This document shows positions 1,127-25,061 of a stretch of DNA of 26,251 nt, piece by piece. Positions within the stretch are counted from its first letter, which is position 1. Each line of letters starts with the position of its first letter. Below the pieces are notes generated by a model that was given only the letters and a program-made list of their open reading frames with translations, did not search any database and was not told the DNA's origin. Made by a program: the position numbers and the translations under genes. The DNA is from a virus: positions 1-26,251 of the IMG/VR virus record IMGVR_UViG_3300042731_002286; one strand, 5' to 3'.

Positions 1127-1228
1127 CCGCCATAATTAAATTTGTGAGAGTTGTTTTGGTGAAGATGGCGGGGTCTTCTAAGCTCTCAATAAGGTAGGCG
1201 ACCCCGCCAGAGGTTAGCTTACCTACCT
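1127..1228 (-). promoter_or_regulatory. Structured leader with interleaved (pseudoknot-type) helices
   Basis: Read on the minus strand, AGGTAGGT (1228-1221) can pair with GCCTACCT (1199-1192), and GGCGGGGTC (1208-1200) with GACCCCGCC (1175-1167). The order is S1, S2, S1', S2', which is the H-type pseudoknot arrangement, and S2 and S1' abut with no spacer. The S2' strand plus its next two bases (CCGCCAT, 1171-1165) can instead pair with ATGGCGG at 1133-1127, close to the ribosome site of the gene starting at 1110. A weak -10-like TATAAA lies at 1246-1241 and would put the transcript start just before S1. A leader switch is inferred; the complementarity is directly visible. Confidence 0.5.
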
Positions 1229-2649: not shown

Positions 2650-2659
2650 TCTCTCATGT

Positions 2660-2745
2660 AAGCGGTTAAACGCTTCAAGATTTTTAACTTATTTACCCGT
2701 GTCGCCAACGGGCTGAAAACTATCGAGGGAGACGTAGAGATAGTT
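2660..2745 (+). promoter_or_regulatory. Structured 5' leader of the early transcript (three hairpins)
   Basis: Three hairpins follow the early promoter: AAGCG/CGCTT (2660-2664 with 2671-2675, 6-nt loop); CCCGT/ACGGG (2696-2700 with 2708-2712, 7-nt loop GTCGCCA); and AACTATC/GATAGTT (2718-2724 with 2739-2745, 14-nt purine-rich loop). The first begins within about five bases of the expected transcript start. None is followed by a T-run, so they are not intrinsic terminators. By position they could be nut- or put-type antitermination elements, or mRNA-stabilising or regulatory structures. Confidence 0.5.
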
Positions 2746-2801
2746 AGAGCTTTTAAATAAATTCTCTGCGGAGGGTTTATAAAAAGTTTAAAGGATATGT
2801 T

Positions 2802-3254
2802 ATGCTTAACAGACGATTACGTGGCATATGGCATGGGTTAAGAAGTAGATGCGAGAATAAAAATCATGCTGCGTATAAATACTATGGAGCCAGAGGCATA
2901 CATGTATGCGACGAATGGAGCAAGTTTGAACTATTCTTGCAATGGTCTATTGACAACGGATATGAAGAAAATCTTGAAATTGATAGAATTGATAACGATT
3001 TAGGGTACTCACCCTCAAATTGTAGATGGACAACAAGATCAAGTAATGCTAGAAACACAAGAAAACTAAGGGAAGACAATACATCTGGGTTCAGGGGTGT
3101 TACATATGTATCTGATAAGAAAAAATGGATGTCATACATTAAGGTAAATAGCAAGCAGAAAACACTAGGATATTCAAAATGCAGAGCATGTGCAGCCTTA
3201 ATGTACGATATATATGTATTGGAAAATAACCTAGAGCATACTAGGAACTTCTAG
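2802..3254 (+). CDS. HNH homing-type endonuclease with AP2-like DNA-binding domain
   Basis: 150 residues. Residues about 24-80 carry the pattern YKYYGARGIHVCDEW, F..FLQWSIDNGY, then LEIDRIDNDLGYSPSNCRW, typical of a phage HNH-type nuclease family with the D-R-I-D-N core. Residues about 94-124 (TSGFRGVTY, KKKWMSYIKV, KTLGY) look like the AP2 DNA-binding fold often fused to HNH nucleases. Such proteins are usually selfish homing enzymes that cut one strand or both and spread by repair. It starts at ATG 2802 after AAAGGA. It lies between the early promoter and the first ordinary early gene, with structured RNA on both sides, which suggests a recent insertion. Whether it still cuts DNA is unknown. 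Confidence 0.8.
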   Translation: MLNRRLRGIWHGLRSRCENKNHAAYKYYGARGIHVCDEWSKFELFLQWSIDNGYEENLEIDRIDNDLGYSPSNCRWTTRSSNARNTRKLREDNTSGFRGVTYVSDKKKWMSYIKVNSKQKTLGYSKCRACAALMYDIYVLENNLEHTRNF

Positions 3255-7902: not shown

Positions 7903-8715
7903 ATGAAAAACAAATCAAAAAAAAGAAAAGCTCACAATAAGATTGATATAACAGGAAAAAGATTTGGTCATCTTGTTGTTAAATATGAAACCGATAGGGC
8001 ATCTTATTGGTTGTGCGAATGCGATTGTGGCGGTCAAAGGGTTTTGCATACAGGGAAGCTAAGGCACAGGGGTGTTGATAGGTGCAAGGGATGTATGTCA
8101 TTAAAAAAATCATTATCCGCTACAAAGCACGGATCGCGTGGAACAAAATTGTATGGTGTATGGAATACGATGAAGCAAAGGTGCAGCAACCCAAATGTTC
8201 AAATGTACTATAGGTACGGTGGGCGTGGTATTGAAGTTTGCGAAGAATGGAAGAATAGCTTTGAAGTATTCATGGATTTTGCTATAAATAATGGATACGC
8301 AGACGGAATGTCTATCGAAAGATTAGATAACAATAAAGGCTACACACCAGAAAACTGTACGTTTATACCAATATCAGAACAGCCAAAAAACAGAAGTGTT
8401 TGTAAAATATTTGATGAGGATAAGCCAGTAATAATTAAAAAATACAACAATGGTTATTCGCAGTCTCAAATTGCCAAGATGTACAATGTGCATCCAAGCA
8501 GAATAGGACAAATATTAAAAGAATTAGGCATAGAAAGGAGATCAAATGCTATTGCACTAAGAAAATTGTCAGATGAGACTGCACAAAGGATGTGTACAAT
8601 TAGGCAAAACACAGGTAAAAGCTTTAAAGAGATAGGAAAACTATTTAATGTTAGTGGAGAGACGGCAAGAAAAGAAATATTAAATTCACAAAGGACAAAT
8701 AATGGCATACAATAA
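7903..8715 (+). CDS. HNH-type homing endonuclease with zinc ribbon and C-terminal helix-turn-helix repeats
   Basis: 270 residues. The N-terminal domain has Cys at about 38, 40, 42 and 61, 64 (CECDCGG, later CKGC), a zinc-ribbon-like set. Residues about 82-155 (LYGVWNTMKQRC, YYRYGGRGIEVCEEW, MSIERLDNNKGYTPENCTF) match the nuclease core of the gene at 2802. Two helix-turn-helix units follow: GYSQSQIAKMYNVHPSRIGQIL (about 185-206) and SFKEIGKLFNVSGETARKEIL (about 240-260). They should give site recognition. ATG 7903 follows AGGA. Its last 14 bases overlap the start of ssb, in another frame. Likely a selfish homing gene with modular DNA binding; activity unproven. Confidence 0.75.
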   Translation: MKNKSKKRKAHNKIDITGKRFGHLVVKYETDRASYWLCECDCGGQRVLHTGKLRHRGVDRCKGCMSLKKSLSATKHGSRGTKLYGVWNTMKQRCSNPNVQMYYRYGGRGIEVCEEWKNSFEVFMDFAINNGYADGMSIERLDNNKGYTPENCTFIPISEQPKNRSVCKIFDEDKPVIIKKYNNGYSQSQIAKMYNVHPSRIGQILKELGIERRSNAIALRKLSDETAQRMCTIRQNTGKSFKEIGKLFNVSGETARKEILNSQRTNNGIQ

Positions 8716-9232
8716 AGTAATTTTGCAAGGCAATCTTGTACGGGATGTGGAAACCAGGTATTCAACAAGCGGCAGTGCGATAGGGAGCTCTGCAATCGCG
8801 GTAACAAAAAAGTTCAAAAAACAAGACGGCACACAGGCAGAGAAGACACTATTTGTTGATGTTGTTGCTTACGGACGCACAGCTGAGATTATGAACAACT
8901 ACTTACAAAAGGGCAGTAGCGTACTGATAGATGGTGAACTTGAACTTGATCAATGGACGGCACAAGATGGATCGAAGAGATCGAAACACAAAATTAAGAT
9001 TGAAAACCTACAAATGCTAGGCGGTAAAGATAAAACGCAAAACAGCAACGAGGCACCGTCACAAGGGCAATACAGCCAACCGCAACACTCAACAACTCAA
9101 AATCACTGGGATGAGTCAAGCGGGCAGCAGTCACAGCAAGCGGCAATACCTGAGATAGATATTGCTGAGAGCGAAATACCATTCGCACCGATCGGTAGAG
9201 CAGAGGGTGGACATTTCGTCCATATTATTTAG
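8702..9232 (+). CDS. ssb: Single-stranded DNA binding protein, Campylobacterota-like
   Basis: 176 residues. The OB-fold spans about 1-107 (NKVILQGNLVRDVETRY, KKQDGTQAEKTLFVDV, GRTAEIMNNYLQKGSSVLIDGEL, SKRSKHKIKIENLQML). A Gln/Ser-rich linker follows (about 110-148). The C-terminus has PEIDIAESEIPF, the acidic tip that binds partner proteins; it is very close to Campylobacterota SSB tips. Fifteen further residues follow (APIGRAEGGHFVHII), which is unusual because bacterial SSB normally ends at IPF. It protects single-stranded DNA in replication and recombination and probably works with the Rad52-like and NinB-like proteins. ATG 8702 has AAAGGA upstream. Confidence 0.9.
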   Translation: MAYNKVILQGNLVRDVETRYSTSGSAIGSSAIAVTKKFKKQDGTQAEKTLFVDVVAYGRTAEIMNNYLQKGSSVLIDGELELDQWTAQDGSKRSKHKIKIENLQMLGGKDKTQNSNEAPSQGQYSQPQHSTTQNHWDESSGQQSQQAAIPEIDIAESEIPFAPIGRAEGGHFVHII

Positions 9233-12004: not shown

Positions 12005-14143
12005 TTATTTAGTGTATGTTTTAGATGTAAAATAATTGAAAGCGTCAAGTGCATTATCAAAAACCATAGCTTGAACAGCGGACACTCTCCATGTAGCATC
12101 TTCGTTATTTCCTCTAAAATCCGCTGGGAAGAAACTCTGCAACCCGTCACTATAGAACATAGTAGAAACAAGTCTCCAACCATCGCCTGCGTTGTGTATT
12201 AAATTACCCATTACTTGCACAGTGCTCCTATTCCATGTTGCAGTAGTTAGTGACCCCGCGGTACACTTAATATAATAGCTTAGGACACAAAAGCCCTCAG
12301 GAGTAGTTATAGAAGCTAAAGCTGTGTACTCACTAGAACTAAACGCAGCCCTCGTATATTCGTTACAAGTAGGGAATATAGGGCTGTCATTTACAACTAC
12401 TCCTGTCAATCCAAAAGAGCCATAACCTGTGCTAACTGAAGCTTCTAAAGTATCAGAATAATACTTCTCTACAACTCTTCCCCCATCTAATATTTTTTGT
12501 TGCGCATAATCAACAAAAGATCTTGACTGTGCCCTAGTTGGGTTGCCATTCAGAGGTTGTTGATATAAGTCTTTGAATATAGGAGTGTTGAAATTTATAT
12601 TTAAGTTTTGATTTGGTGCTGGTCTCAGTCCTACTACTGTAAAATTATTATAGCTGATAGTTGAGCTCCCGCTTGTAGAAAAGCCCTCACCTCCGAATCC
12701 TTCCTGATATACTGCTGGAGCGTTAGATATCATAACTGTACAATTATCACCTATACAATGGATACCAGTAGGCCTCCCGCCTACGAAAGACACTTCCATT
12801 TTTCCATCAAAATATAATGTCCTATTATCCAATGTAGTTTCAGATAAGGTAGTATCACTCCATTGATCTATGTTAGTCGTACCTGCATTATACCCCTGAC
12901 CATTACCCTCAAACCAGCAATCATAATACGAAATCGGGAAATAAGGATAGGTGCTAGAATATATGTAGTTAGTTATATTGTTAGCTTCAAAGATAGTACC
13001 TCTAAATACAAAACCGCTAAACCCGTCAACAGTATTATGTACATAATTAGCACAGTCATTTAAACTAAACTCACCATCATAAAAATACATATTCCCAGCG
13101 TGCATCGTTTCCCCAAATTTATTGGATAGAGAATATACACCATATTTATTAGCTCTAAAACCACAAGAATAAAAGCTATTCCCAATGTTTCCGAAAGGTT
13201 TATATACACCTTTCCCGTTACCTTGGAAAAGACACTTATTAAACACCACATTTCGTTTTAACTCGTCGTTGGCTACGTAATCATTAACGTCGTCCTTACC
13301 AAAAGCAAAGCCTATCCCTGTTTTACCTGTTGAGTGAAAACCGACTCCTGTGATATTAGATGAATAATCCCATTTTGAGCTAATAACGCCGTAAATCATA
13401 GTAGCTTTATTTATATCATATGCGTAAAGCTTTGTTTGTTCCCCCCCATCTCCGATAATAACAATTCTGTTATGTAGCGTGATATTTATTTTATAACTAC
13501 CGGATGGTATGTATACTTTTGTATACCCATCTACTGCTGTTTGAAAGGGGATTGAGTCGTCCCCGTCTCCATTTGCCCCAAACCATTTAACATTCACAGT
13601 TCCACTATATTGCCTAACCCAACAACCTAGCCCACTACCAGTACCTTGATTTTCAAGCGAAACAGTTGGGTCAAATATTGTTCCACCATTTGCTGTGGAT
13701 TTGTCGATAGTTGAATCCCAGTTAAATAGCCCGCCTCCTCCATCATTCGCAGAATGATATCCAAGTATGTTGACTGTATACCCATCCGAATATGATGTTA
13801 GCCCGATAAGGCTACTGACAGTAGCAAATGAGTTTACGGACACTAATTTACTTGTGGCTACAGGAGCATAAAATACCATCTCCTTTTGTTTGTTTCTTAC
13901 AGTGATAGAATATTCGTCTTCTACATACAAAGTGCCAGGCGACCCGTTTCTGTAAGCATACCCGCCGGATGTTCTGATCGGCTGTGCCGCAGGAATTGAT
14001 AGCTCTACGTCCCAATATGCTTGCTTAGGTGATACCTCTGGGTTTAAGTTTGCTTCTCCTATGTATATGTACCCATCTTCTAATGGGTTGCCGTCTGTAT
14101 CGGTGAATATCTCATAAGGTTGTTGGATTAAATTTGATGACAT
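12005..14143 (-). CDS. Tailspike with P22-type head-binding domain and beta-helix body
   Basis: 712 residues. The N-terminal part (about 1-105; QPYEIFTDTDGNPLEDGYIYIGEAN-like start, then AQPIRTSGGYAYRNGSP and YSITVRNKQKEMVFYAP) is the domain that binds the P22-type tail machine. NVKWFGANGDGDDSIPFQTAVD (near 185) opens a right-handed beta-helix (about 185-500) typical of polysaccharide-binding or -cleaving spikes. The end (about 550-712) has strands and may be a trimerising or sugar-binding domain. The trimer should recognise a surface polysaccharide of the host. The substrate cannot be read from the sequence. It overlaps the previous gene's stop by one base. Confidence 0.85.
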   Translation of the reverse strand: MSSNLIQQPYEIFTDTDGNPLEDGYIYIGEANLNPEVSPKQAYWDVELSIPAAQPIRTSGGYAYRNGSPGTLYVEDEYSITVRNKQKEMVFYAPVATSKLVSVNSFATVSSLIGLTSYSDGYTVNILGYHSANDGGGGLFNWDSTIDKSTANGGTIFDPTVSLENQGTGSGLGCWVRQYSGTVNVKWFGANGDGDDSIPFQTAVDGYTKVYIPSGSYKINITLHNRIVIIGDGGEQTKLYAYDINKATMIYGVISSKWDYSSNITGVGFHSTGKTGIGFAFGKDDVNDYVANDELKRNVVFNKCLFQGNGKGVYKPFGNIGNSFYSCGFRANKYGVYSLSNKFGETMHAGNMYFYDGEFSLNDCANYVHNTVDGFSGFVFRGTIFEANNITNYIYSSTYPYFPISYYDCWFEGNGQGYNAGTTNIDQWSDTTLSETTLDNRTLYFDGKMEVSFVGGRPTGIHCIGDNCTVMISNAPAVYQEGFGGEGFSTSGSSTISYNNFTVVGLRPAPNQNLNINFNTPIFKDLYQQPLNGNPTRAQSRSFVDYAQQKILDGGRVVEKYYSDTLEASVSTGYGSFGLTGVVVNDSPIFPTCNEYTRAAFSSSEYTALASITTPEGFCVLSYYIKCTAGSLTTATWNRSTVQVMGNLIHNAGDGWRLVSTMFYSDGLQSFFPADFRGNNEDATWRVSAVQAMVFDNALDAFNYFTSKTYTK

Positions 14144-15918
14144 TATTTTTCCTTCAGTAAAGTTTCTATTGCTTTTATTGCGTTTTCTTCGTTGATACCT
14201 CTAGCCTTCTCCATCCCTTTTGCGGTTAAATCTATGGCGGTTTCAAGCATATTTCTTCTTGCGATATCAAGACCTTTCATTGTCGCTTCTTCGATCTGCC
14301 CCTTGAAGCTTGTTGGTGCTGCTGCTCCGAACATACGATCTATCTCGTTTGCGAAAATTACTTGTCTGAGTATATCATCATTGCTTTTTAACCCGTACTT
14401 TGTAGCGACGTTATCGGCTTTGGTGATAGAGTCCATCATGTTGACGCGGGATTTATTGTTGCTCAGCAAGCCACGTAATGATGTCCCGAATGACTTGGGC
14501 ACATTAGGGCTTTTCATGTTGATCGATGTACCTACTGCTTTTTGGATATCATTTAACACATCAAGTGTTTCTGAATACTTTGTATTTTGCGCTTTATACG
14601 CCGGGGAAAGCTCGCCCAAAGTTTCATTTATATTTCTTCTGAAGTCTTTTAGTACGCTTTCAGTGCTTTTACCTATTGCCTGCTTTCCTTTTCCATATGA
14701 CACCTGCGTATCTATCAGTCTTTTAAGCTTATGTAGCTTATACGCATCACCGCCTGATTCGTCTACTGATCTCAGTATGTTTTGCAGTATTTTCTTAGAT
14801 GTTCCCTCTAGTCTTATGTCTGACTTTGAAATATCTACTAATATATCTCCATCTTCGTTTCTGCCGATTGCTACTCCCATGTCATCGAGTTTCGTTTTTA
14901 GGCTGTTTAAAGGATCAGTGATGTTTACCGTTTTACCTTGTAGTTTCTTCGCTGCATTATCTATGGCAGTACCAGCTTTTCTATTTGCGTTAAATAGAAA
15001 ATTTACCCTTTCATTTAAAGAGTCACCGACTACATCAGTAGGTCTATTTTTCGCGGCATACACGGCATCTTCTTTGCCCTCTTTAAGGACATGAAGCATT
15101 TTTTTCATGTTCAACTTGTCTTTATTGCTTGCAGTTTTTACTGCCGAAATAACACTTGGTTGGAAACCTTGCTTTATTGACTCTATCGCCGGTTTGTCTT
15201 TAACCACCTCATTACCAACTACTTTGTATTCTGCTATTTCTGCGCTTGTAGGATTTGTTTTTATAGTCTCCTTGATCGCAGTCGTGTCAGGTTTTAACAT
15301 ACTTGGTATCTTTGCCGCACCTGCTCCTATCATCCCACCTGCCAAAGTTGATGCAAGCTGTACCCCTGGACCTGCACCCGATTCCTCTGCTATCTTTTGA
15401 CCTGCTCCGGCACCAGCAGCTCCGGCAAGTTGTTGCCCTGATTTTTCAGTGATAACTTCTAACCCTTTAGCCATAGTAGGAGCTTGTTTAGCAATTTGCT
15501 GTGCCGCACCTGTGAACGCACCAGCTCCAACCAATGCCTTCGAAGCTTGTTGTACTATTCTCTCAGTAGCAGTCTCCGGCTCAGGCACCCCTGCGTCTGT
15601 GAGTAGCTTGTTAACAGCTGGCTTGATCATGGCTATCTTCATATCATCTGGAAGAGCCAAGTTCATTACCTCTGCCAGTGGATCAGTAAATACACTGGCT
15701 ACCTCAGCAGTCCCTTCTGCCGCGGCTCTACTTGTAAGTCCTATCTGTCTTTTAAGTTCATCTATCCAATCACGTTCTTCGGGTTGGGATAGTTCTTCTA
15801 TCGGCGTTGCCGCTTCAAATTCAGATGCTAGATCTTCTTCTGGTTTTGGTACGGGTACTTCTGCCCCGATAGGTTGTGCTTGCTCAAAAAGTGCTTCCAA
15901 ATCTTCTTCTGGCATCAT
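14143..15918 (-). CDS. DNA ejection (internal virion) protein, gp16-like by position
   Basis: 591 residues. The N-terminus is acidic and Pro/Glu-rich, with the repeated EEDLEALFEQAQPIG and EEDLASEFEAATPIE. Residues about 110-200 are Ala/Gly-rich and could span membrane (GAGAFTGAAQQIAK, LAGAAGAGAGQKIAE, TLAGGMIGAGA). The rest is long helices. Ala/Gly-rich amphipathic stretches are typical of ejection proteins that leave the capsid and make a channel for DNA through the host envelope. Gene order (after the other two ejection proteins, before the tailspike) matches P22 gp16. ATG 15918 overlaps the previous stop (ATGA); ATG 15915 is also possible. Confidence 0.7.
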   Translation of the reverse strand: MMPEEDLEALFEQAQPIGAEVPVPKPEEDLASEFEAATPIEELSQPEERDWIDELKRQIGLTSRAAAEGTAEVASVFTDPLAEVMNLALPDDMKIAMIKPAVNKLLTDAGVPEPETATERIVQQASKALVGAGAFTGAAQQIAKQAPTMAKGLEVITEKSGQQLAGAAGAGAGQKIAEESGAGPGVQLASTLAGGMIGAGAAKIPSMLKPDTTAIKETIKTNPTSAEIAEYKVVGNEVVKDKPAIESIKQGFQPSVISAVKTASNKDKLNMKKMLHVLKEGKEDAVYAAKNRPTDVVGDSLNERVNFLFNANRKAGTAIDNAAKKLQGKTVNITDPLNSLKTKLDDMGVAIGRNEDGDILVDISKSDIRLEGTSKKILQNILRSVDESGGDAYKLHKLKRLIDTQVSYGKGKQAIGKSTESVLKDFRRNINETLGELSPAYKAQNTKYSETLDVLNDIQKAVGTSINMKSPNVPKSFGTSLRGLLSNNKSRVNMMDSITKADNVATKYGLKSNDDILRQVIFANEIDRMFGAAAPTSFKGQIEEATMKGLDIARRNMLETAIDLTAKGMEKARGINEENAIKAIETLLKEK

Positions 15919-17267
15919 TCTACTCCATATGTTCCATCACTATATTTTACTACGATCCTGCCGTCCGCTGTTCTCCGTCTTTCTAGGACTTTCTTTTCTC
16001 CGAGTTCAGCTTCTTCAACTTGACCAAATATATTATCTGTGTTGAGTTTATAGTTTTTTGCGACTGTAGTAAGCCCGCTCCTTACTTTTGTTTCATGTTT
16101 CTTTGCCGCTTTCATATATTCACCCGCGAGGTCAACGAAATTCTGCCTTTGTTTTGGGCTTAAGAACTGCCCATTTTGAATTTGTTCGGCTTTGTTCTTT
16201 AGCCCATCAAGTAGACCTACCGTGTCTCTTGCTGTAGCAAACTCAGTTTCCCGCACCACGGATCCAGGATCAAGCATCTTCATAAACGATGTAACAAGTG
16301 CAATATCTCCGGCACCACTATTGTCTCTGGCAGATGCTTTTATCGTTTCAAGGTTTGTTTCTGCTTGGGTGAAATTTGATATCCTGTCATTGTACTCTTT
16401 CCTTAACTTTTCTTCTTGGTTGAATTTTTGCTCAGGTGTAAGACCGCCGGATTCTATTTCTATATTCTCCATTTGCATTACATCGCCCAAGAGAGAAGAT
16501 GGAACGCCTTTATTGTCTTTAACTACCTTAGAAATTGCTTGTGGCGGCAAGCCTATTTCCTGCGCTTGCTTAAGTAATTCGCCCGGCTTTAGATCCTCTA
16601 TTTTTCTTGCTTCAGCTTCAAATTTTTCTAACTCTCCCATTGTCTTTCTATTCTCTGTATACTTTTCAGGCCCCAGTGCTTGCACCTGAAGTAATCTACT
16701 GATCCCCATAGCTGCATCAGGGTTCGCATTGATAAGTTTTTTTTGTGATTGAAGGGCTGCTACTTTGGCTTTATCCCCTACCGATTCTGCCGCAGCTATC
16801 TTTCTATCAAATTCTTCATTTGCTAGGTCTGTTCTCCCTGCCATTAGAGCAGCTTCTACTGTTGTTGCTGTTTGTAAGAAATCTTGCTTTTCTTCTTGTC
16901 CCATCATATCAAGCGCGTCACCGACTCTGCCCTTTAATTCAGGATATTTCAGCGTGACTTCATAGAGTTCTTTCCCTGACATATTTGGACGTTTTGCTAT
17001 ATCGTTGATAACATTTCCTATCTCTACTTGTCTGCGTCGCGCTGCTTCTGCTTGTCTTGCGGCGGCGGCTCTGTTAGCTTTGTCTATCTCAATTTGCCGT
17101 TCAAATTCCTGACGTTTTAGATTTGCAATTTCCATTTGTTGTGCATGAGATTCTTGAGACATTTGTCTTTTTTCCATCATGTTTCTCAGGGATAATGCTT
17201 GCCCTACATTCTGCATGACGTTCTGTGTTGGGTTTGGGATGTTAAGTAAGTAGTCTTTTGGTTCCAT
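15915..17267 (-). CDS. DNA ejection protein, gp20-like
   Basis: 450 residues from ATG 17267, seven bases after GGAG; a TTG in frame at 17279 is not needed. Mostly helical: a Gln/Arg-rich coiled coil at about 25-85 (RQEFERQIEIDKANRAAAARQAEAARRR pattern), then helices with GRTDLANEEFDRKI. The block FTQAETNLETIKASARDNSGAGDIALVTSFMKMLDPGSVVRETEF near residue 300 is a conserved part of phage internal or ejection proteins. Ends with a small basic strand region (LERRRTADGRIVVKYSDGTYGVE). By place it should correspond to P22 gp20. Confidence 0.7.
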   Translation of the reverse strand: MEPKDYLLNIPNPTQNVMQNVGQALSLRNMMEKRQMSQESHAQQMEIANLKRQEFERQIEIDKANRAAAARQAEAARRRQVEIGNVINDIAKRPNMSGKELYEVTLKYPELKGRVGDALDMMGQEEKQDFLQTATTVEAALMAGRTDLANEEFDRKIAAAESVGDKAKVAALQSQKKLINANPDAAMGISRLLQVQALGPEKYTENRKTMGELEKFEAEARKIEDLKPGELLKQAQEIGLPPQAISKVVKDNKGVPSSLLGDVMQMENIEIESGGLTPEQKFNQEEKLRKEYNDRISNFTQAETNLETIKASARDNSGAGDIALVTSFMKMLDPGSVVRETEFATARDTVGLLDGLKNKAEQIQNGQFLSPKQRQNFVDLAGEYMKAAKKHETKVRSGLTTVAKNYKLNTDNIFGQVEEAELGEKKVLERRRTADGRIVVKYSDGTYGVE

Positions 17268-17268
17268 G

Positions 17269-18177
17269 TTATACTCCAAATAATCTGCCGTAATTTACCG
17301 TAAGGTATCCGTCTCTATACCCTATACAGTCAGGGCGTATGGATAATACCTCTTGGGCAATTACCCCACTATCGTGACCACTCCCATCTACCCAGTCCCA
17401 TTCATATGTATTGATGCCGTTTTGTATGCCAGTTTTCGTAATGTTTGTTTTTAGCCTAGAATCAGAGAATGTACTTAGTGTAGCACCGGATAATGCTGCA
17501 GGTGCAGCCGTGCCAACTCCACCAGTCCCACCTAATAATCCAAGCTGATTCATTAGTGCATACTGCTGTAGTCCCCCAGTGATACCGCCGACCAAGTTAG
17601 TGGCCGCCTGCCCCTGTGCCAATGCCTGCCCCGCCTGAGCCGCGCCTATCTGCCCTGCTGCTTGTCCCATCTGCCCCGCTGCCTGCTGCCCCGCTGCTCC
17701 TACTCCAGCCGCAGAAGCCTGCCCAAGCCCGGCGAGCCCTCCGAGTTTTGCATATTGGGACTCTATCTCTCGTTGCAGCATAGCCGGTCTATACTGTGCC
17801 AATGCGCCTTGGATATTGCCTCCTCTTAGCCCTCCGGTTGCCGCCGCTTGTTGCAACATGGCCTCCTCCCCTTGCCTTACTTGTGCCTGGAAAAGTGGGG
17901 ATGTCTCTATCCCAGATATGGCTCTTTGTTGTGCCTCTTCACCGCCTTCTCCGATACCTAGCAGATCAAGTTGTTGTAGTAAAGCCTCATCACCAGCTTC
18001 AACGTATGGAGATAAAAGTTCTCTTGTTTCGGCGAGTGCTTCCCTTTGAAATTGTATCTGTTCATCTGCTGCTGCTTGTTGTGCCCGTGATGCAGATTCT
18101 GCGGCACTTGATTGTTCATGTGCAGAATACGCTGCACCTGCCGCGCCTAATACCAATGCTCCTGTCATTAATCCCAT
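17269..18177 (-). CDS. Ejection-type protein (gp7-like) with C-terminal S74 self-cleaving chaperone domain
   Basis: 302 residues. The first 236 residues are Ala/Gly/Gln-rich and helical (MTGALVLGAAGAAYSAHEQ, later repeats of GQAAGQMGQAAG type) like internal virion proteins of P22 and many podoviruses. Residues about 237-302 have FSDSRLKTNI, the start of an intramolecular chaperone (peptidase S74) domain; the Ser-Asp pair (238-239) matches the self-cleavage site of such domains, and GVIAQEV and VNYGRL lie where expected. S74 domains normally trimerise tail fibres and are then cut off. On an internal protein this is unusual for P22 but known from other phages. It overlaps nothing and lies one base before the gp20-like start. 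Confidence 0.75.
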   Translation of the reverse strand: MGLMTGALVLGAAGAAYSAHEQSSAAESASRAQQAAADEQIQFQREALAETRELLSPYVEAGDEALLQQLDLLGIGEGGEEAQQRAISGIETSPLFQAQVRQGEEAMLQQAAATGGLRGGNIQGALAQYRPAMLQREIESQYAKLGGLAGLGQASAAGVGAAGQQAAGQMGQAAGQIGAAQAGQALAQGQAATNLVGGITGGLQQYALMNQLGLLGGTGGVGTAAPAALSGATLSTFSDSRLKTNITKTGIQNGINTYEWDWVDGSGHDSGVIAQEVLSIRPDCIGYRDGYLTVNYGRLFGV

Positions 18178-18513
18178 TTATAATCCTTTTATATAAAGAT
18201 TTTTTTCTTCGTCATGACGATATCCCAGCTTATTCATAAATCTTTTTATCTCATGTCTTTCTGAGTATATTATACACTTTTTAAATGCCTTGCCTAGCCC
18301 TATGATGTCACGCTTCATTCCTATTGTAAAGCGCCCGTTATCGATAGTGCCGCTGTTTATAACACACACTTCCCCATCCATGCAATAATTCACTATCCCA
18401 TAGTCATCGTATACTTTTGTGTATCCGTTAGCCAGGGCATATAACCAGTTTGGGGTTATACCTGTTTTTTCAAATACTTTTTCTACTAAGGTAAAGTCTG
18501 CCAACTTCTCCAT
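18178..18513 (-). CDS. Hypothetical protein, possibly acetyltransferase-like
   Basis: 111 residues. The first part resembles a small alpha/beta fold with YCMDGEVCVINSGTI-DNGRFTIG, and the end IIYSERHEIKRFMNKLGYRHDEE is like the last helix and strand of GNAT proteins ('...F..KLGF..'). The acetyl-CoA loop is not visible. The start lies in the 3' end of the GNAT-like gene (44-base overlap, different frame) after GGAAGGT. The pair may have come as a unit. Function not proven. Confidence 0.5.
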   Translation of the reverse strand: MEKLADFTLVEKVFEKTGITPNWLYALANGYTKVYDDYGIVNYCMDGEVCVINSGTIDNGRFTIGMKRDIIGLGKAFKKCIIYSERHEIKRFMNKLGYRHDEEKNLYIKGL

Positions 18514-18832
18514 ATTTACCTTCCCCTGATATGACTATTTTTTCTTTTTCTGCTACTCTGTCAAGCATTTTTGATGTAATGCCCTTACCTCTGTGGGGTT
18601 TTGGTACATATATCCTTATTACGTTTGCACTTCTTAGCCCTAATGTCGGCATTTTTACCACTTCATAAACCAAGTGAGATTTGTATTCTGGGATATAAAT
18701 TGTATGATTGAAAATCAGATCGTATATTGTTACTTTTAGCGCCTGAAACATCGTAGGTGTATGATTAATATCATTTTTTTCTATATGTTCAAGTGCAGCG
18801 TTGTAGTGGTTTTTTGTTATCTGCCATATCAT
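18470..18832 (-). CDS. GNAT-type acetyltransferase-like protein
   Basis: 120 residues. IRIYVPKPHRGKGITSKMLDRVAEK (about 78-103) carries the R-G-K-G-I-T acetyl-CoA loop of GNAT proteins (motif R/Q-x-x-G-x-G/A) and the following helix. The sequence seems short for a full GNAT fold (usually 140-170 residues). It lies upstream of the ejection protein genes, where P22 has gp14 and several podoviruses have acetyltransferase-like internal proteins. It may modify a virion or host protein, or be structural. Confidence 0.6.
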   Translation of the reverse strand: MIWQITKNHYNAALEHIEKNDINHTPTMFQALKVTIYDLIFNHTIYIPEYKSHLVYEVVKMPTLGLRSANVIRIYVPKPHRGKGITSKMLDRVAEKEKIVISGEGKYGEVGRLYLSRKSI

Positions 18833-19164
18833 GTGATCTCGCGTCCACTTGACCTGATAGTAAGTGCCGAAGCTGTACCGGCTAAAGTACTGATGAACCC
18901 GCCTGACTCCAATGTTTGCCCTACAAGCTCTACTGCGTTATACGTTTCTCCAGGGGCGATGCCACGCGCATCTATAATGAGATTGCTATCTGATGCAGAC
19001 CCACTCAACGGGACAAGATTGCATGAGAATGTAACATTTGAAGAAGATGTATTCGTGATAGTGAATTTATCTATAATGGTTTTGCAGTTTGATGCGGTGT
19101 ATTGTGTCGTTTGTGCTGCTTCTGCTTGTTTCGATGGTATAATATTTACGACTGTGACTGCCAT
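18829..19164 (-). CDS. Small virion protein
   Basis: 111 residues of beta type. The pattern LIIDARGIAPGETYNAVELVGQTLESGGFISTLAG-ASALTIRSSGREIT near the C-terminus is one I recognise from a small family of minor structural proteins encoded with phage tail or head genes. No catalytic residues visible. It overlaps the GNAT-like gene by four bases and follows the needle candidate by eight bases. It probably sits on the capsid or tail, but the exact place is unknown. Confidence 0.55.
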   Translation of the reverse strand: MAVTVVNIIPSKQAEAAQTTQYTASNCKTIIDKFTITNTSSSNVTFSCNLVPLSGSASDSNLIIDARGIAPGETYNAVELVGQTLESGGFISTLAGTASALTIRSSGREIT

Positions 19165-19172
19165 AGCGTCTC

Positions 19173-20477
19173 CTATTTTGCGATTTGTTCTACTGTAAGT
19201 ATAGCAGAAGGTGAGGCAGGCGCGAACCCCGATGCAGCGGAATAATCCAATGTTACATTAACATCATCTGCCGCCCACATAGCCTCTATGTAATCTCCTG
19301 CGTTTAAGTTGAAGGTCATGTTCCTGGAAAGAGGTTTTGTCTCCGCGTTGCTGATTATGGTTATTACCATAGAAGAGTTTGCGACATCTACACCGTTTAT
19401 TCTGGGCCAGAACCATACATTTTTGGCACTAGAACTGCCGGATGTAAGTTGTGCTGAAAAAGAAACGCTGTAAAGCCCGCTTTCATTAACATATATTCTG
19501 CTTGTAGGCGAACCTATATATACCCCATTTGATGATTGCGTGTTGCTAAATGTAATCGCATATGCCGTGTTTGCTGCCGCCGGACTGTGGTCATTTAAAT
19601 CATAAAACGAACCATATAGTGAGTTGTCCTGAGGCTCCACTCTTGCAAACAATACTCCATCTGAAGAGTCATTGTCAATAACTATAGCCACAGGAATAAC
19701 ATAGTCTGGGGCTGTCGGTCTTATGTTGGTAAGATATCCGGCTGTATCTGCTGAAACATATAAGATATCACCATTCGCCCAGGTCTCGCCATATGGTGTG
19801 CCTGACGCATCTAAGCTATTCACATTGCCAAAGTTAGTCACAAATCCATCTTCGCCGCTTACTATGTCTTCAGTTGCTATGCCGAGGACATAAAGAGAAG
19901 ACTCAGAGCCATCGGCTATATAATATTTTCCTTTTATAGCCCCGGAAGTAGTGGCATCATCGTACCCTATTATTCTTCCATTCGACAAAGTAGCACCATT
20001 CCCGTTATTTACTCTTATAAAAGTTTCTAATCCTATTTGCTGCATAATACTGTTACCGTGATCTACCTCAAGGGTTCTATGAGTATCACACCATGCTACT
20101 CTGCCTTTTCTTTCTGCTCTTTTGCAATATTGCCTAAAATCTACATAATTAAATGCTGGGGTATTCGTTGTCTCGATGGGCGGTTTTTTAGACTCGGTGT
20201 CTATAAGTTTGCCGAGATGATCGAGTAAAGCCAGCGATGATTCTATCTTTGAAGATAACACCGCATCATTCGTTTTAGAATCTTGTTTGAGTGTTATCAT
20301 TTTTGAAAATACCGCATTTGCCAGTGATGTAGCCGTAGCGGACTCTATGGCTATTTCTTCTGATAGGTTAGGGGTGTCTGTACCTGATTGCCTAAACAAA
20401 TCTTCAAATGCTCTTATTAGTTCGTTAGTAGGGAGGAACCTAGCAAGATCGTTTCTGGTTGGTGTTTTTACTGCCAT
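19173..20477 (-). CDS. Tail needle/fibre candidate (gp26 position) with jelly-roll-like C-terminus
   Basis: 434 residues. The N-terminal 25 residues (RNDLARFLPTNELIRAFEDLF) are a helix found in several phage tail proteins. A helical section follows (45-85), then a middle domain with VAWCDTHRTLEVDHGN. The C-terminal about 135 residues are beta-rich: GVYIGSPTSRIYVNESGLYSVSFS, then FWPRINGVDV and LNAGDYIEAMWAADD, the pattern of C1q/TNF-like jelly rolls ('G.Y.....F' and 'L..GD.I.....'). The gene stands directly after gp10, where P22 has gp26. The Sf6 needle ends in a TNF-like knob, which fits. Needle versus fibre is not settled. Confidence 0.6.
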   Translation of the reverse strand: MAVKTPTRNDLARFLPTNELIRAFEDLFRQSGTDTPNLSEEIAIESATATSLANAVFSKMITLKQDSKTNDAVLSSKIESSLALLDHLGKLIDTESKKPPIETTNTPAFNYVDFRQYCKRAERKGRVAWCDTHRTLEVDHGNSIMQQIGLETFIRVNNGNGATLSNGRIIGYDDATTSGAIKGKYYIADGSESSLYVLGIATEDIVSGEDGFVTNFGNVNSLDASGTPYGETWANGDILYVSADTAGYLTNIRPTAPDYVIPVAIVIDNDSSDGVLFARVEPQDNSLYGSFYDLNDHSPAAANTAYAITFSNTQSSNGVYIGSPTSRIYVNESGLYSVSFSAQLTSGSSSAKNVWFWPRINGVDVANSSMVITIISNAETKPLSRNMTFNLNAGDYIEAMWAADDVNVTLDYSAASGFAPASPSAILTVEQIAK

Positions 20478-20479
20478 AT

Positions 20480-21877
20480 CTACTCCGCGAGAGGTTCTAT
20501 TTTTGCTTCAAGCCGTGCCATTGAGATAAAAGTATCGCTTGTACCTCTAAATTTTTGCACTCGCCAATTCCTCATTATTCCATTTCTAAACCATGCTAGA
20601 CGCTTTGTTCTATTCCCATTTTTGCCTGCACTTATAGGGCGCTCTTGACTCCAAGTTACCCCATCATCACTGTAGCTTGTCCATATAGTAGGATATTCTC
20701 CGAATTCTACCCTCCCTGTCAATGCTACAAGTTCAAGTTCGTTGAATATCGCGCCATTGCCTTCATTGTAAAGTATGGTTGTGCCGAATTCCCAATCTAT
20801 CATTTCACCATAGTGAGAAGATATGCTGTCATCCATGTACCCGTAATTTGTACTATTCGGGTCTGCTGTGATCCATTTGTCATAAGCAAACACAAAATTT
20901 CTAGCCTTATATGCCGAATACCCTGATAGTGAACTTGTCAAAGTAAACCATACCTGAGTATTTAGCTTTGCGGATGCGGATCCGTCATATACTAGTGATC
21001 TATTGGGTAGGTGAATAATTAAAAACTCATGATTTCTATGTGTCACTGTTTCTACCACTGCTTTTGATAATTGATCCTCTGTGTATTGCTGAAGTATGAT
21101 ATCTATTTCATGCGTGGCTATCTTACGGGTGGATCCATTCCCCCCTATCCATACTGATATGGGTTCGTTTAACTTAGACCCTAAAAATGCTATATTCTCA
21201 ACAAACACAGCGAATGCGTGCGTACCCACTGCACCTCTTTCTATATGGGCCCCATCTATTCTTTGGAATGGGAAAAGAGATCCTCCTACATTATCAAATA
21301 CCTCTATAGTGTATCTGTTCACAGCATAAACTTCGTTTCTTAACTTTTGTAGCCCGACTATTTCATCAGGGTTTATTTCAGATGATCCATATTTTAGTGG
21401 GCTGACATTAAACGGGCTGTTCAGTTCCGTCACCACTATGCTCGTCCCGTCTGTGGTCATGAAGTAGCCATCTATCCATATGACATCAATGACATTACCG
21501 AGGTCTGAATCTGTATTTTGTGCGAGTGCCCCATCGTACAGAAATAGTTTATTGTCTGATGCTATAGCTAGATAATCAAACGAATAAGCAAAAGAAACTT
21601 GTTCTGTCCCCCCAACATCTCCTAGCTCAGTATATGATCCATTTTCATTTATTTTGACTAATTTAGTCCCCATCACTCTATAGCATATCCCATTCCAGTT
21701 TATACCGCCTCTATCCTTGCCTGGGCCTTCTCCCATCTTGACGATACCGTCAGCAGGTCTTAGATACCCAACGGACATTCCTAGTTGTTTTGGTACCGGG
21801 ATTAAGTTTTTAGGGTAGGAGGTTCTAAAGTCTGCAACATCATCAGAATATATCCCGTTAAGTATTGGTATTTGCAC
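20480..21877 (-). CDS. P22 gp10-like tail accessory / DNA stabilisation protein
   Basis: 465 residues from GTG 21877 (AGGAAAGG upstream). The N-terminus with PKNLIPVPKQ-GMSVGYLRPADGI and the series GICYRVMGTKLVKINENGSY-ELGDVGG-EQVSFAYS-DYLAIASDNKLFLYDG is the pattern of P22 gp10, which has a beta-propeller and closes the portal after packaging. EIVGLQKLRNEVYAVNRYTIEVFDN also fits. It should bind gp4 and hold the needle and spikes. Length is close to P22 gp10 (472). TAGTG overlap with the previous microgene suggests coupling. Confidence 0.85.
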   Translation of the reverse strand: MQIPILNGIYSDDVADFRTSYPKNLIPVPKQLGMSVGYLRPADGIVKMGEGPGKDRGGINWNGICYRVMGTKLVKINENGSYTELGDVGGTEQVSFAYSFDYLAIASDNKLFLYDGALAQNTDSDLGNVIDVIWIDGYFMTTDGTSIVVTELNSPFNVSPLKYGSSEINPDEIVGLQKLRNEVYAVNRYTIEVFDNVGGSLFPFQRIDGAHIERGAVGTHAFAVFVENIAFLGSKLNEPISVWIGGNGSTRKIATHEIDIILQQYTEDQLSKAVVETVTHRNHEFLIIHLPNRSLVYDGSASAKLNTQVWFTLTSSLSGYSAYKARNFVFAYDKWITADPNSTNYGYMDDSISSHYGEMIDWEFGTTILYNEGNGAIFNELELVALTGRVEFGEYPTIWTSYSDDGVTWSQERPISAGKNGNRTKRLAWFRNGIMRNWRVQKFRGTSDTFISMARLEAKIEPLAE

Positions 21878-21990
21878 TATAAAGCCTTTCCTATTTCGTA
21901 TAATGCCACATGATCACATATCCATGATAAAGCCGCCGCCCCACAAGCAATAATCAATATTTTAATTATCTCTCTATTTAAAGTTTTCAT
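21877..21990 (-). CDS. 37-residue membrane microprotein between holin and gp10 genes
   Basis: ATG 21990 lies in the last codons of the upstream membrane protein gene (17-base overlap, other frame) and its stop overlaps the gp10 GTG by one base. The product has a charged start (MKTLNREIIK) and one hydrophobic stretch (ILIIACGAAALSWI). Might be an antiholin or membrane regulator, purely by position. Confidence 0.5.
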   Translation of the reverse strand: MKTLNREIIKILIIACGAAALSWICDHVALYEIGKAL

Positions 21991-22339
21991 TTTTTAAACC
22001 AAATTTCTGTATTACAATTTGCTTTAATGCACCGGGGAGAAATGATATCATAATAGAAAGTATTGGGACACTGATGACAGAACTTGTGGCGATAATTGCA
22101 TATGCCATATTGCTTCCATCTTCTATCTCTAGCGGTTCAATAATAAATGGCTTGACAAGTATCAATGCAACAAACATGGATGATGCGCCAATCATAAACA
22201 GCACTGACCATGACTTTTTCTCTGTAAACATAAATTGGATCATTGCCCCATACAGTACCACTATCCCTATTTTGACTTCATCATAATAAGACAGAGCCTT
22301 GACCGTCAATATGTTGACTATATGGAGCAAATATTCCAT
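21974..22339 (-). CDS. Three-span membrane protein, holin candidate
   Basis: 121 residues from ATG 22339, which overlaps the upstream stop (TAATG) and has AGGGTAGGA upstream. Hydrophobic helices at about 28-45 (VKIGIVVLYGAMIQFMF), 52-70 (VLFMIGASSMFVALILV) and 85-110 (YAIIATSSVISVPILSIMISFL). The end is basic. Size and three spans match class I holins, which make holes for the endolysin. It is far from the endolysin gene, so the call is tentative. Confidence 0.55.
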   Translation of the reverse strand: MEYLLHIVNILTVKALSYYDEVKIGIVVLYGAMIQFMFTEKKSWSVLFMIGASSMFVALILVKPFIIEPLEIEDGSNMAYAIIATSSVISVPILSIMISFLPGALKQIVIQKFGLKNENFK

Positions 22340-22806
22340 TATCCTACCCTGTACCATGTTTGTACTGTTCCATCGTATTTAAGCCTAAAGAAATCATTCG
22401 CTGATAGTGTTGTAGGCTCTCCCGTAACTGCTACTGCTCCGTTGCCATCCACCGTAAAAGATGTAACTTCTTGAGTTGTATTCACTAAAACTTCTTGCTT
22501 ATCTGATACTTTAGCTAGCGCCGGCAGAGTGATAGTCCCTGTCGCGAGTGTCCCGGTTGGGGTCAAGATAAGCCAAATGTTATCACTCCCATCTGTGATA
22601 TTTACGGTAAAGCCGGTGGAGGACGGTGCTGCATATTGAGTCGTGAACTCCTGCTTGCCTGATGCTGCTGTTTGCTGAGCTAAAACATACGCTGCAAGAG
22701 CGGATAGAGATAGTTTTCTTGTGTCGCTATTGCCTGAGCTGTATACCGGGAGTAGATCACTTCCAGATGGGTCGCTAAGTGTTGAATATTGGTTTATTGA
22801 TGGCAT
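22339..22806 (-). CDS. Phage structural protein of the SDTRKLSLSAL type
   Basis: 155 residues. The N-terminus INQYSTLSDPSGSDLLPVYSSGNSDTRKLSLSALAAYV is found in many phage tail or head-tail genes. The second half is beta-rich and may form a sandwich (GFTVNITDGSDNIWLILTPTGTLATGTITLP). It lies between gp4 and the holin candidate, suggesting a small tail or head decoration protein. No enzymatic motif. Confidence 0.6.
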   Translation of the reverse strand: MPSINQYSTLSDPSGSDLLPVYSSGNSDTRKLSLSALAAYVLAQQTAASGKQEFTTQYAAPSSTGFTVNITDGSDNIWLILTPTGTLATGTITLPALAKVSDKQEVLVNTTQEVTSFTVDGNGAVAVTGEPTTLSANDFFRLKYDGTVQTWYRVG

Positions 22807-22815
22807 TTTTTACTC

Positions 22816-23295
22816 CTAATAAAAATCTAATGTGTCGTTGGACCCATCCGTTAAAGGCTGGTCTTGTTCCGGTATAAATACTCCATCGGAATATCTCCAT
22901 GATTTCGAGCCTTGACCTTTTGGCACCCCTGATACCTGGTACTCCGGTGGTGTAGATAATCTTTGCATCATTGAATCATATGCTTCTTTTGATGATGCTT
23001 TTACGTCCGGATGTATCATTTTACCGAATGATGGCGCTATCCTAATCGCAAGGTTTAGATAGATAGCTTCTAGTGACCAATCAGGGACAAACGAATCATC
23101 AGAGATATCACTTGAATTTGGGCCTGAAGGGATAGGATAGCCAAGCCTGATTCCTTTCCCGTTCCATGTAGCCATCATAGTATCAAGCTTTCTTAGCGCA
23201 GATTCATACTCCTCCGGCTGCAAGTCAAAACTATGCCCGGATAATCCTATGGAATCAAATGCTGATTCTATGATATCCTTTTTAGTCCAGCTCAT
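22816..23295 (-). CDS. P22 gp4-like tail accessory factor
   Basis: 159 residues. The order of motifs matches P22 gp4: TKKDIIESAFDSIGLSGHSFDLQPEEYESALRKLDTMMATWNGKGIRLGYPIP, then WSLEAIYLNLAIRIAPSFGK and the helical end. P22 gp4 adds to the portal first, and also has muramidase activity. The Cys/Glu details for that activity cannot be judged here. It overlaps the upstream gene by 14 bases. Length is similar to P22 gp4 (166). Confidence 0.85.
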   Translation of the reverse strand: MSWTKKDIIESAFDSIGLSGHSFDLQPEEYESALRKLDTMMATWNGKGIRLGYPIPSGPNSSDISDDSFVPDWSLEAIYLNLAIRIAPSFGKMIHPDVKASSKEAYDSMMQRLSTPPEYQVSGVPKGQGSKSWRYSDGVFIPEQDQPLTDGSNDTLDFY

Positions 23296-23560
23296 CGTTT
23301 GCCTTTTTTACTCTTTCAAGAAGAACTTTATCGCTTGTTCTCGCGTTGAATTTGACCCCTAATTCTTTAGCCATTGCTTCCAGTTCTTCTCTTGCGTTTT
23401 CATCGGGCGGGTGTTTAGCCTCTCTTAGTGTCGGATACCACCCATTACTGGTTAGATCATCAAATTCTTTTTGTGTTTTAACGCCTTTGAAGTCATAGGT
23501 TTGTTTATTACCTGCGTTATGACGACCGGGGCATCTGTATACCATAGTTGGGAACTTCAT
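23282..23560 (-). CDS. Small protein with HeH/LEM-like C-terminal helix pair
   Basis: 92 residues from ATG 23560. Residues about 5-20 (MVYRCPGRHNAG) hold a Cys and His that might be a partial zinc site. The C-terminal 35 residues (ELEAMAKELGVKFNARTSDKVLLERVKKA) are typical of the HeH/LEM-like domain found near head-tail genes. I reject an upstream TTG start because ATG 23560 overlaps the stop of a tiny upstream gene (ATGA). It probably has a head-completion or connector-assisting role, given the adjacent gp4. Confidence 0.65.
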   Translation of the reverse strand: MKFPTMVYRCPGRHNAGNKQTYDFKGVKTQKEFDDLTSNGWYPTLREAKHPPDENAREELEAMAKELGVKFNARTSDKVLLERVKKANDELD

Positions 23561-23601
23561 TTTCTTTTCCCGCCGCCGCGTCTTTTCTTTTTGCAAGCCA
23601 T
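23557..23601 (-). CDS. 14-residue strongly basic microprotein
   Basis: ATG 23601 with a good ribosome site (AAAAAGG). The product is MACKKKRRGGGKRK: nine of 14 residues are Lys or Arg. Its stop overlaps the next ATG (ATGA), so the two are coupled. It may be a real RNA- or DNA-binding peptide or just a leader. Confidence 0.5.
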   Translation of the reverse strand: MACKKKRRGGGKRK

Positions 23602-23619
23602 GATAATTCCTTTTTGTTT

Positions 23620-23625
23620 ATTATA
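23620..23625 (-). promoter_or_regulatory. Possible internal -10 box
   Basis: TATAAT on the minus strand, 19 bases before the ATG of the basic microprotein, in an AT-rich gap between genes. There is no good -35 box, which is usual for Campylobacterota promoters. It may boost expression of the tail genes. Confidence 0.3.
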
Positions 23626-23641
23626 CCTTATTAATTAGAAG

Positions 23642-23920
23642 CTAAATTCCTAGTAGTTCAAGAGTAACTACTGCTCCGACAAATATTCCTGCAATAGTTG
23701 CAAACATATCAAAGAAGTCAAAATATGTTTTTTTTATGTATTTATCGTATAGTTCTTTACCAATAGCGATTAATATAGCAACAAAGATAGGAATGATGCT
23801 TCTAGGCACGGATAGTTGCGAAACTGCACCCATAAACATTCCTGCAATCACATGGAGCACTTTATCTTGGTATCTTGTAATGCCTACTTTAGTCATTATC
23901 TCATATAGTTTCTGGATCAT
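23642..23920 (-). CDS. Small membrane protein, VanZ/holin-like
   Basis: 92 residues with hydrophobic stretches at about 21-39 (VLHVIAGMFMGAVSQLSV), 43-55 (IIPIFVAILIAIG) and 72-90 (MFATIAGIFVGAVVTLELL). 'DKVLHVIAG' followed by 'KELYDKY' and 'DFFDMFA' resembles VanZ-like/YfiM-like small membrane proteins that also occur in phages. Could be a second holin candidate or a superinfection-related protein. It overlaps the upstream gene by 20 bases. Confidence 0.6.
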   Translation of the reverse strand: MIQKLYEIMTKVGITRYQDKVLHVIAGMFMGAVSQLSVPRSIIPIFVAILIAIGKELYDKYIKKTYFDFFDMFATIAGIFVGAVVTLELLGI

Positions 23921-24335
23921 CTACTGTCTCCTTATTCAGATTACTTGTGCTCATGAAATATTTTAATAACCCGTACTCTAATAGCCAAAATGCCAACGGG
24001 TCAGAATTGTTAAAATCTTCTCCTCCTAGAACGTAACCGTATGCCTGAAGAAGAGACTTTATCTTAGAAATGTGATTGTAGATGTCAAATACCTCTACAG
24101 GGAATGTAAAGTGCGTACCTCCTGCCAGTGGTAGCCACTGTTTATCCGTTACCTCACATATACTTCTAATCGTATGTGCTCCAATCCTATTACCATCTTC
24201 ATCCAAGATATGGAGCTCCGAGAAAGCAGAGGGGTCGTTCGGGTCTTCTATGGGTATATCCAGTGCTGGTAAAGGTAGCACCACATTGATAGATGGGTAT
24301 TGCTTTGCTCCTGTTAGTTGTTCTGATGTTGTCAT
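23901..24335 (-). CDS. Hypothetical protein in the head-tail region
   Basis: 144 residues, acidic, with mixed strands (INVVLPLPALDIPIEDPND, FSELHILDEDGNRIG) and helices. No family recognised. Between the coat gene and gp4, where P22 has little, so these genes may be phage-specific capsid accessory genes. Ten bases separate it from the upstream gene. Confidence 0.55.
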   Translation of the reverse strand: MTTSEQLTGAKQYPSINVVLPLPALDIPIEDPNDPSAFSELHILDEDGNRIGAHTIRSICEVTDKQWLPLAGGTHFTFPVEVFDIYNHISKIKSLLQAYGYVLGGEDFNNSDPLAFWLLEYGLLKYFMSTSNLNKETVDDPETI

Positions 24336-24345
24336 GTTATGCTCC

Positions 24346-24741
24346 TCATGATGTTTTCACGTATCGCATAGTAACCAACCCACCTACAATAGCATTATCC
24401 CCAGTATAGGCACTTCCAACCCATCCCACAATATTGGTCGAGTCTGTCATATACACAGATACCACTTCTGATGTAGTTCCTGAATAAGTTGCCGGGTTTG
24501 GTATGGTTCTTGTCCTGCCATCACTTTGGGTAGCATCCCCCCAAATAGGTTCGATGTGTTTGTCAAAGTTTGCTATCCCGTGCGCCATTATATTGTTCTG
24601 CCCTGCCGCAAGTGTAGAAAGATGAAAAGATTTTTGGTATATAGGTCTATTATCTACATATGTACCTACAACTTGTTCGTCTGTGCTATATGCTACCACG
24701 TCTACAGCGTTATACCCTCTATAGCTAGTAAATTGATACAT
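24346..24741 (-). CDS. Beta-rich structural protein with YQKSFHL motif
   Basis: 131 residues. YSTDEQVVGTYVDNRPIYQKSFHL matches a widespread module in phage and prophage minor structural proteins ('YSTEE..VG..IDGKPLYQKT'). The rest is beta-rich. Here it is a stand-alone gene close to coat, so a capsid or fibre decoration role is likely. It overlaps the upstream gene by 17 bases. Confidence 0.6.
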   Translation of the reverse strand: MYQFTSYRGYNAVDVVAYSTDEQVVGTYVDNRPIYQKSFHLSTLAAGQNNIMAHGIANFDKHIEPIWGDATQSDGRTRTIPNPATYSGTTSEVVSVYMTDSTNIVGWVGSAYTGDNAIVGGLVTMRYVKTS

Positions 24742-24985
24742 TGTCTTTTACCCCGTATACCATCGTTGTGTTTTTGTCTGATGTGATAGTTTCCCAATCT
24801 CTCCCAAATCTAGTCGGCTCATATGCGTGTAATGGCAGCGTAATGCTATCTGCCCCTCTTGTTACAGTAAGAGTTATATTGTCATAAAACATTGCACCGA
24901 CAATATCTCTTTTTAATTGCTCTGTTATATCTATAGCTGCTTCAGCTGTTACAGGAATTTCTTTAGGTACAGGTACAAAATCCAT
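24725..24985 (-). CDS. Small hypothetical protein next to coat
   Basis: 86 residues. A Pro-rich start (MDFVPVPKEIPVTAEAA) is followed by strands (NITLTVTRGADSITLPLHAYE). It might be a head decoration or assembly protein. ATG 24985 follows AAAAAGGA. First gene after the hairpin that ends the coat gene. Confidence 0.55.
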   Translation of the reverse strand: MDFVPVPKEIPVTAEAAIDITEQLKRDIVGAMFYDNITLTVTRGADSITLPLHAYEPTRFGRDWETITSDKNTTMVYGVKDNVSIY

Positions 24986-25028
24986 TTTATTTCCTTTTTG
25001 CAGTATGTTTAATATAACTAATTATACT

Positions 25029-25056
25029 AAAAATACGGCAAAGGGCTGGAAGCCCT
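25029..25056 (-). terminator. Weak terminator or attenuator after coat
   Basis: On the minus strand AGGGCT (25056-25051) pairs with AGCCCT (25047-25042) around a three-base loop, followed by TTTGCCGTATTTTT. It lies 6 bases after the coat stop. The T-tract is interrupted, so it may let much transcription pass, lowering expression of the later genes relative to coat. Confidence 0.5.
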
Positions 25057-25061
25057 AAGCG

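Follow-up and report, generated by a model that had tools for sequence, protein, structure and literature searches.

The leader of the replication operon of a P22-like phage contains two long helices whose arms interleave on the minus strand and that are predicted to form an H-type pseudoknot. The sequence feature is real and statistically outstanding, and its putative regulatory role is plausible. We tentatively propose that the leader could be a cis-acting RNA that tunes translation of the phage's leftward, lambda-O-like replication operon; the steps of this proposal, from transcription of the leader and formation of the pseudoknot to the effect on translation and any effector, are predictions from the sequence.

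Genome context and the replication operon

The window, meaning the whole stretch of DNA analysed here, is a 26,251-base record, an IMG/VR viral contig of an uncultured, short-tailed P22-like phage. Its P22-like gene set includes a P22-family coat protein, head-closure and DNA-ejection proteins, an Erf/Rad52-type annealing protein, a Gam-like protein and a single-strand binding protein (SSB, plus strand, 8702-9232). The minus-strand genes (29-2526) are separated by a divergent control region from a plus-strand operon that runs from 2802 onward. A perfect TTGACA-17-TATAAT promoter lies on the plus strand in 2621-2805, ahead of an HNH-endonuclease gene, and a second strongly structured leader (2656-2805, plus strand; z -2.8, 1/200 shuffles as stable), for which no Rfam match was found, precedes the same gene. 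Two large open reading frames (ORFs) in the structural region, of 591 aa and 434 aa (14143-15918 and 19173-20477, minus strand), had no PHROG match at E 0.001. Another IMG/VR contig (IMGVR_UViG_3300035128_000001, L002) is identical to window positions 15065-26251 (11.2 kb) and adds ~0.77 kb of phage beyond the right end of the window; the leader is absent from it.

The last two minus-strand genes encode a 108-aa protein (784-1110), the first gene of the replication operon, and a 252-aa lambda-O-like replication initiator of the HTH/DnaD type (29-787). The two genes overlap as ATGA, and translational coupling between them is therefore plausible. No family match was found for the 108-aa protein, and its AlphaFold model (pLDDT 52) is too poor to be informative. 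The Shine-Dalgarno sequence of this gene, AAAGG, is at 1117-1121 on the minus strand, and the interleaved-helix leader lies 56-118 nt before the start codon. Within the initiator gene, three near-identical direct repeats (TAGTCCATCTCCCTGACTTTGGG, 383-471) resemble the lambda origin iterons inside O, and in a distant initiator homologue, L089, the corresponding position in the gene is occupied by three repeats of a different sequence (AGTAAAGAGGCTTTACC).

Interleaved helices in the leader

On the minus strand, the core of helix S1 is formed by a 5´ arm, AGGUAGGU (1221-1228), and the S1´ arm, GCCUACCU (1192-1199), which pair without interruption over 8 bp (1228-1221/1199-1192), seven of them Watson-Crick and the last a closing U-G. 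The 5´ arm of S2, UGGCGGGGUC (1200-1209), lies within the S1 hairpin loop and pairs with the S2´ arm, GACCCCGCCA (1166-1175), in an uninterrupted helix of 10 bp, all Watson-Crick (1209-1200/1175-1166). An earlier note on this DNA had described the arms as interleaved in the order S1-S2-S1´-S2´ with no spacer between S2 and S1´. We found the arms in this order at these minus-strand positions, with loops of 11 (L1), 0 and 16 (L3) nt, where the spacer is zero only if the U-G pair is counted and is otherwise one base. Given interleaved helices and loops of feasible length, the predicted topology is that of an H-type pseudoknot, as the earlier note had also proposed, and the arrangement is far beyond chance in shuffled sequences.

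The chance comparison was made by scoring each H-type arrangement by its summed stacking energy. S1 and S2 in the leader sum to -42.3 kcal/mol, a value that 1000 dinucleotide shuffles of the 161-nt region never reached (best shuffle, -33.65). The next-strongest H-type arrangement in the window scored -31.5 kcal/mol, leaving none elsewhere within 10 kcal/mol, and the leader arrangement also ranked first across 292 kb of phage loci with a GC content of at most 45%, both strands included. It is therefore unlikely that the interleaving arose by chance. The folding of 1105-1240 as a whole was likewise more stable than that of shuffles (z -2.8, 2/200), and 1111-1165 alone was unstructured (MFE -1.8, z +0.9).

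S1 extends well beyond the core, a feature missed in the earlier note: 17 pairs over 19 positions connect 1240-1222 with 1198-1180, including one G-U pair and interrupted by G-G and U-U mismatches. The extended S1´ arm (1180-1198) leaves 4 nt (AGAA) before S2´. Because this linker is too short to span the stem, the geometry implies that full S1 and full S2 cannot coexist, and the pseudoknot needs the lower S1 stem to open. Two wobble pairs, U1235-G1185 and U1221-G1199, are possible on the minus strand only, the plus strand having A-C mismatches at these positions. These G-U pairs, together with the direction of the genes, favor an element that would act as minus-strand RNA. The plus strand can make the same knot at -40.5 kcal/mol.

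Transcript start and predicted folds

Just upstream of the leader, the minus strand has a terminator-like hairpin (1261-1276) whose loop is C(UUCG)G and whose U tract is weak. This suggests that the replication genes are either reached by partial read-through or have a promoter of their own. No convincing local promoter for the leader was found; the nearest -10-like sequence, TATAAT (1315-1310), has no good -35, and better promoter sites are located at 2613-2557.

In nested folding, full S1 was favored for transcripts with 5´ ends at 1240 or upstream, and S2 for those with 5´ ends at 1234 or later. For the pseudoknot, a rough estimate gave -28.2 kcal/mol for 1228-1166, with an initiation penalty of 9.6 kcal/mol. 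By this estimate, when the leader is long (5´ end at 1240 or upstream), the best nested fold is more stable than the pseudoknot by 2-6 kcal/mol, depending on the credit given to coaxial stacking; with 5´ ends at 1234 or 1228, the pseudoknot is level with that fold or lower in energy. These gaps fall inside the error of such estimates. Competing pairings are thus present, with the best states within a few kcal/mol of one another. In these models the transcript start decides the fold, full S1 being predicted for starts at 1240 or upstream and S2 or the pseudoknot for starts at 1234 or later.

A possible alternative pairing next to the ribosome site

S2´ has an alternative partner on the minus strand, AUGGCGGUAUCU (1122-1133), directly 5´ of the Shine-Dalgarno sequence. 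The predicted duplex (S2´:1133-1122) has 10/12 positions paired at -14.9 kcal/mol. It was equaled in 60/2000 dinucleotide shuffles of the downstream leader (~3%) and in 0/2000 mononucleotide shuffles. The pairing of S2´ just before the ribosome site put forward in the earlier note was therefore found, but it is only marginally above chance and suggestive only. The same note had counted three mutually exclusive pairings near the start codon. S2 and S2´:1133-1122 do exclude each other, but core S1 is compatible with both, and the only other exclusive pair is full S1 versus full S2.

The accessibility of the ribosome site did not follow these helices in a simple manner. The AAA of the Shine-Dalgarno sequence (1121-1119) was unpaired at a probability of at least 0.77 in every nested ensemble state modelled. 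The GG (1118-1117) ranged from 0.02 to 0.96 unpaired as a result of weak local helices, one of which pairs it with GUAUC (1127-1123), and this variation did not consistently follow S1 or S2. In none of the modelled states was the whole Shine-Dalgarno sequence sequestered. A classical sequestration switch is not supported by these models, because the AAA is always free and the pairing of the GG has no consistent connection to S1 or S2. The sign of any effect on translation is unpredictable, because the S2´:1133-1122 helix would lie within the 30S footprint yet competes with the weak helix covering the GG.

Searches for related leaders

Searches of the leader against Rfam at gathering and relaxed thresholds identified no family; the two hits at E ≤10 were chance hits on the other strand. 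Using the first gene, the initiator, the neighboring genes and the arm patterns as queries, we found no homologous leader in IMG/VR, GTDB genomes, or phage and plasmid records. The single-protein searches were seeded by exact 8-residue words, which limits their sensitivity for relatives. These word-seeded searches detected no relatives of the 108-aa protein in IMG/VR, GTDB, phages or plasmids, and searches with the initiator returned distant homologues only, the nearest being L089 (42% over 148 aa). In L089, a different gene is directly upstream of the initiator gene, whose start follows that gene with no intervening leader. P22-like relatives were chosen by coat protein, and 80 loci were kept, all with 52-66% identity except for one contig of the same phage with 100%. 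The 108-aa gene was present in 0/48 of the P22-like records searched, and the initiator had one weak partial match among the same 48. Close relatives of the neighboring genes were not found.

A nucleotide search of the leader gave chance hits only, and the exact S2-S1´ arm pattern did not occur in IMG/VR. The S1´-S2´ pattern was present in 65 IMG/VR stretches, which were set aside as chance matches given that no matching 5´ arms were found in the 60 bases upstream. An HDV-like ribozyme was also considered and dropped, as there is no room between S2 and S1´ for the P3 hairpin of that fold.

Comparison with known leader pseudoknots

By analogy, the phage leader resembles the IncI repZ leader most in its logic and the T4 gene 32 operator most in its layout. 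In repZ there is a competing structure, as one arm can also pair with another partner close to the ribosome site. In the repZ leader of the IncI-alpha plasmid ColIb-P9, UGGCG in a hairpin loop pairs with a downstream CGCCA to form a pseudoknot before the replication-initiator operon, and formation of the IncI pseudoknot, in which the loop UUGGCG pairs downstream, permits translation (PMC8383071, PMC7646527). To judge from titles cited in PMC10724649, the rep leaders of IncB and IncL/M plasmids are related to the repZ type. The phage leader likewise has a loop with CUGGCG, an S2´ arm with CGCCA, a competing arm near the ribosome site and an initiator operon downstream. However, the phage loop is CUGGCG rather than UUGGCG, S2´ is 45 nt before the ribosome site whereas the repZ partner CGCCAA is beside it, the phage initiator is encoded by the second gene, and there is no sequence kinship with repZ. 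No repZ-like leader peptide was found in the phage leader, where the ORFs have 2-4 codons only, apart from a 15-codon ORF at 1133 without a Shine-Dalgarno sequence.

In the gene 32 operator of T4 and RB69, a pseudoknot in the leader precedes an unstructured stretch of RNA in which the ribosome site lies (PMC535899, PMC3014915). The phage leader is predicted to have a similar arrangement, with the ribosome site of a replication gene in the unstructured part after the pseudoknot, but the T4 pseudoknot is ~28 nt with short stems and this one would be 63 nt with 8 + 10 pairs. The downstream gene also differs in not encoding an SSB, and UUAAA/UAAA repeats are not prominent. The E. coli rpsO leader can adopt either a hairpin or a pseudoknot state, a choice that controls translation of the gene that follows, and the pseudoknot overlaps the ribosome site. 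This leader pseudoknot, of the gene for S15, is mentioned in PMC3014915; the gene is different here, and the phage leader has no Rfam sequence match.

Proposed mechanism and alternative explanations

In the mechanism we propose, S1 would form first during transcription, exposing UGGCGGGGUC in its loop, and S2´ would then have two possible partners, UGGCGGGGUC in the S1 loop or AUGGCGGUAUCU (1133-1122). Docking of S2´ in the S1 loop would give the H-type pseudoknot, with the lower S1 stem open and 1165-1111 single-stranded. If S2´ paired instead with AUGGCGGUAUCU, immediately 5´ of the Shine-Dalgarno sequence, the resulting helix would fall within the 30S footprint. The balance between the two S2´ states would determine how strongly the first gene and, via the ATGA overlap, the initiator gene are translated, and hence the dose of replication protein; we guess that the permissive state is the pseudoknot. 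This balance could be shifted by a trans-acting factor, with the 108-aa protein, the initiator and SSB as candidates. The most novel version of the proposal, a new class of leader RNA in phages whose pseudoknot and ribosome-site helix compete for S2´ to set the initiator dose, possibly sensed by the 108-aa protein, and thus a plasmid-style copy-control switch in a tailed phage, appears unlikely.

The main rival is a stability or processing hairpin, whereby the stems protect the replication message or RNase III cuts them after read-through and the interleaving has no function. This is conceivable, if rather doubtful: full S1, with its 17 pairs, is the favored nested fold of long transcripts, and the leader comes after a terminator-like hairpin, so that read-through RNA would need processing or protection, but a hairpin of this kind has no need of interleaved arms with zero spacer, and the combined arrangement is unique in the window. 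A repression operator of the T4 gene 32 kind, in which a nucleic-acid-binding protein of the phage starts binding at the pseudoknot and then coats the unstructured ribosome-site stretch, is unlikely even though the layout, a pseudoknot and then ~55 nt of A+U/C-rich, unstructured RNA that includes the ribosome site, matches. The SSB of this phage is encoded on the other strand (8702-9232), the 108-aa first gene has no family match, and just one UAAA overlaps the ribosome site.

Both readings in which the minus-strand RNA is not the active molecule seem to us improbable. A short antisense RNA from the plus strand that ends at the S1 hairpin and regulates the replication message, like those of IncI or R1 plasmids, is consistent with the ability of the plus strand to make the same knot and with the T tract that follows S1 on that strand (UUUUUAUA). 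However, no good site for a repZ-like antisense promoter was found on the plus strand in 1095-1180, the best nearby candidate (TTTACC-16-TAAAAT, 1067-1094) ranks 51st in the window, and the minus-only G-U pairs point to the other strand. The same pairs, along with a position exactly within the untranslated leader of the operon, argue against inverted repeats that function at the DNA level, such as by binding a protein or by serving in replication as a single-strand initiation site, although the arms are symmetric in DNA and lie ~0.7 kb from the iteron-like repeats in the initiator gene. A metabolite-sensing riboswitch is very improbable. A compact pseudoknot with competing pairings in a leader speaks for it, and the earlier note saw a riboswitch-like design in three mutually exclusive pairings near a start codon, a description we have not kept: the Rfam covariance-model search had no match, no relatives were found, a phage replication gene is downstream, and the whole Shine-Dalgarno sequence is occluded in no modelled state.

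Plasmids already provide examples of leader pseudoknots through which the dose of a replication protein is set. Among viruses, according to a 2010 review, the T4-type gene 32 pseudoknot was possibly still the sole one for translational autoregulation (PMC3014915). The finding is a minor one if the leader described here does no more than act as a stability hairpin. If translational tuning by the leader is true, this would be a second, unrelated phage case, located before a lambda-O-like initiator, and would indicate that such control arises independently.
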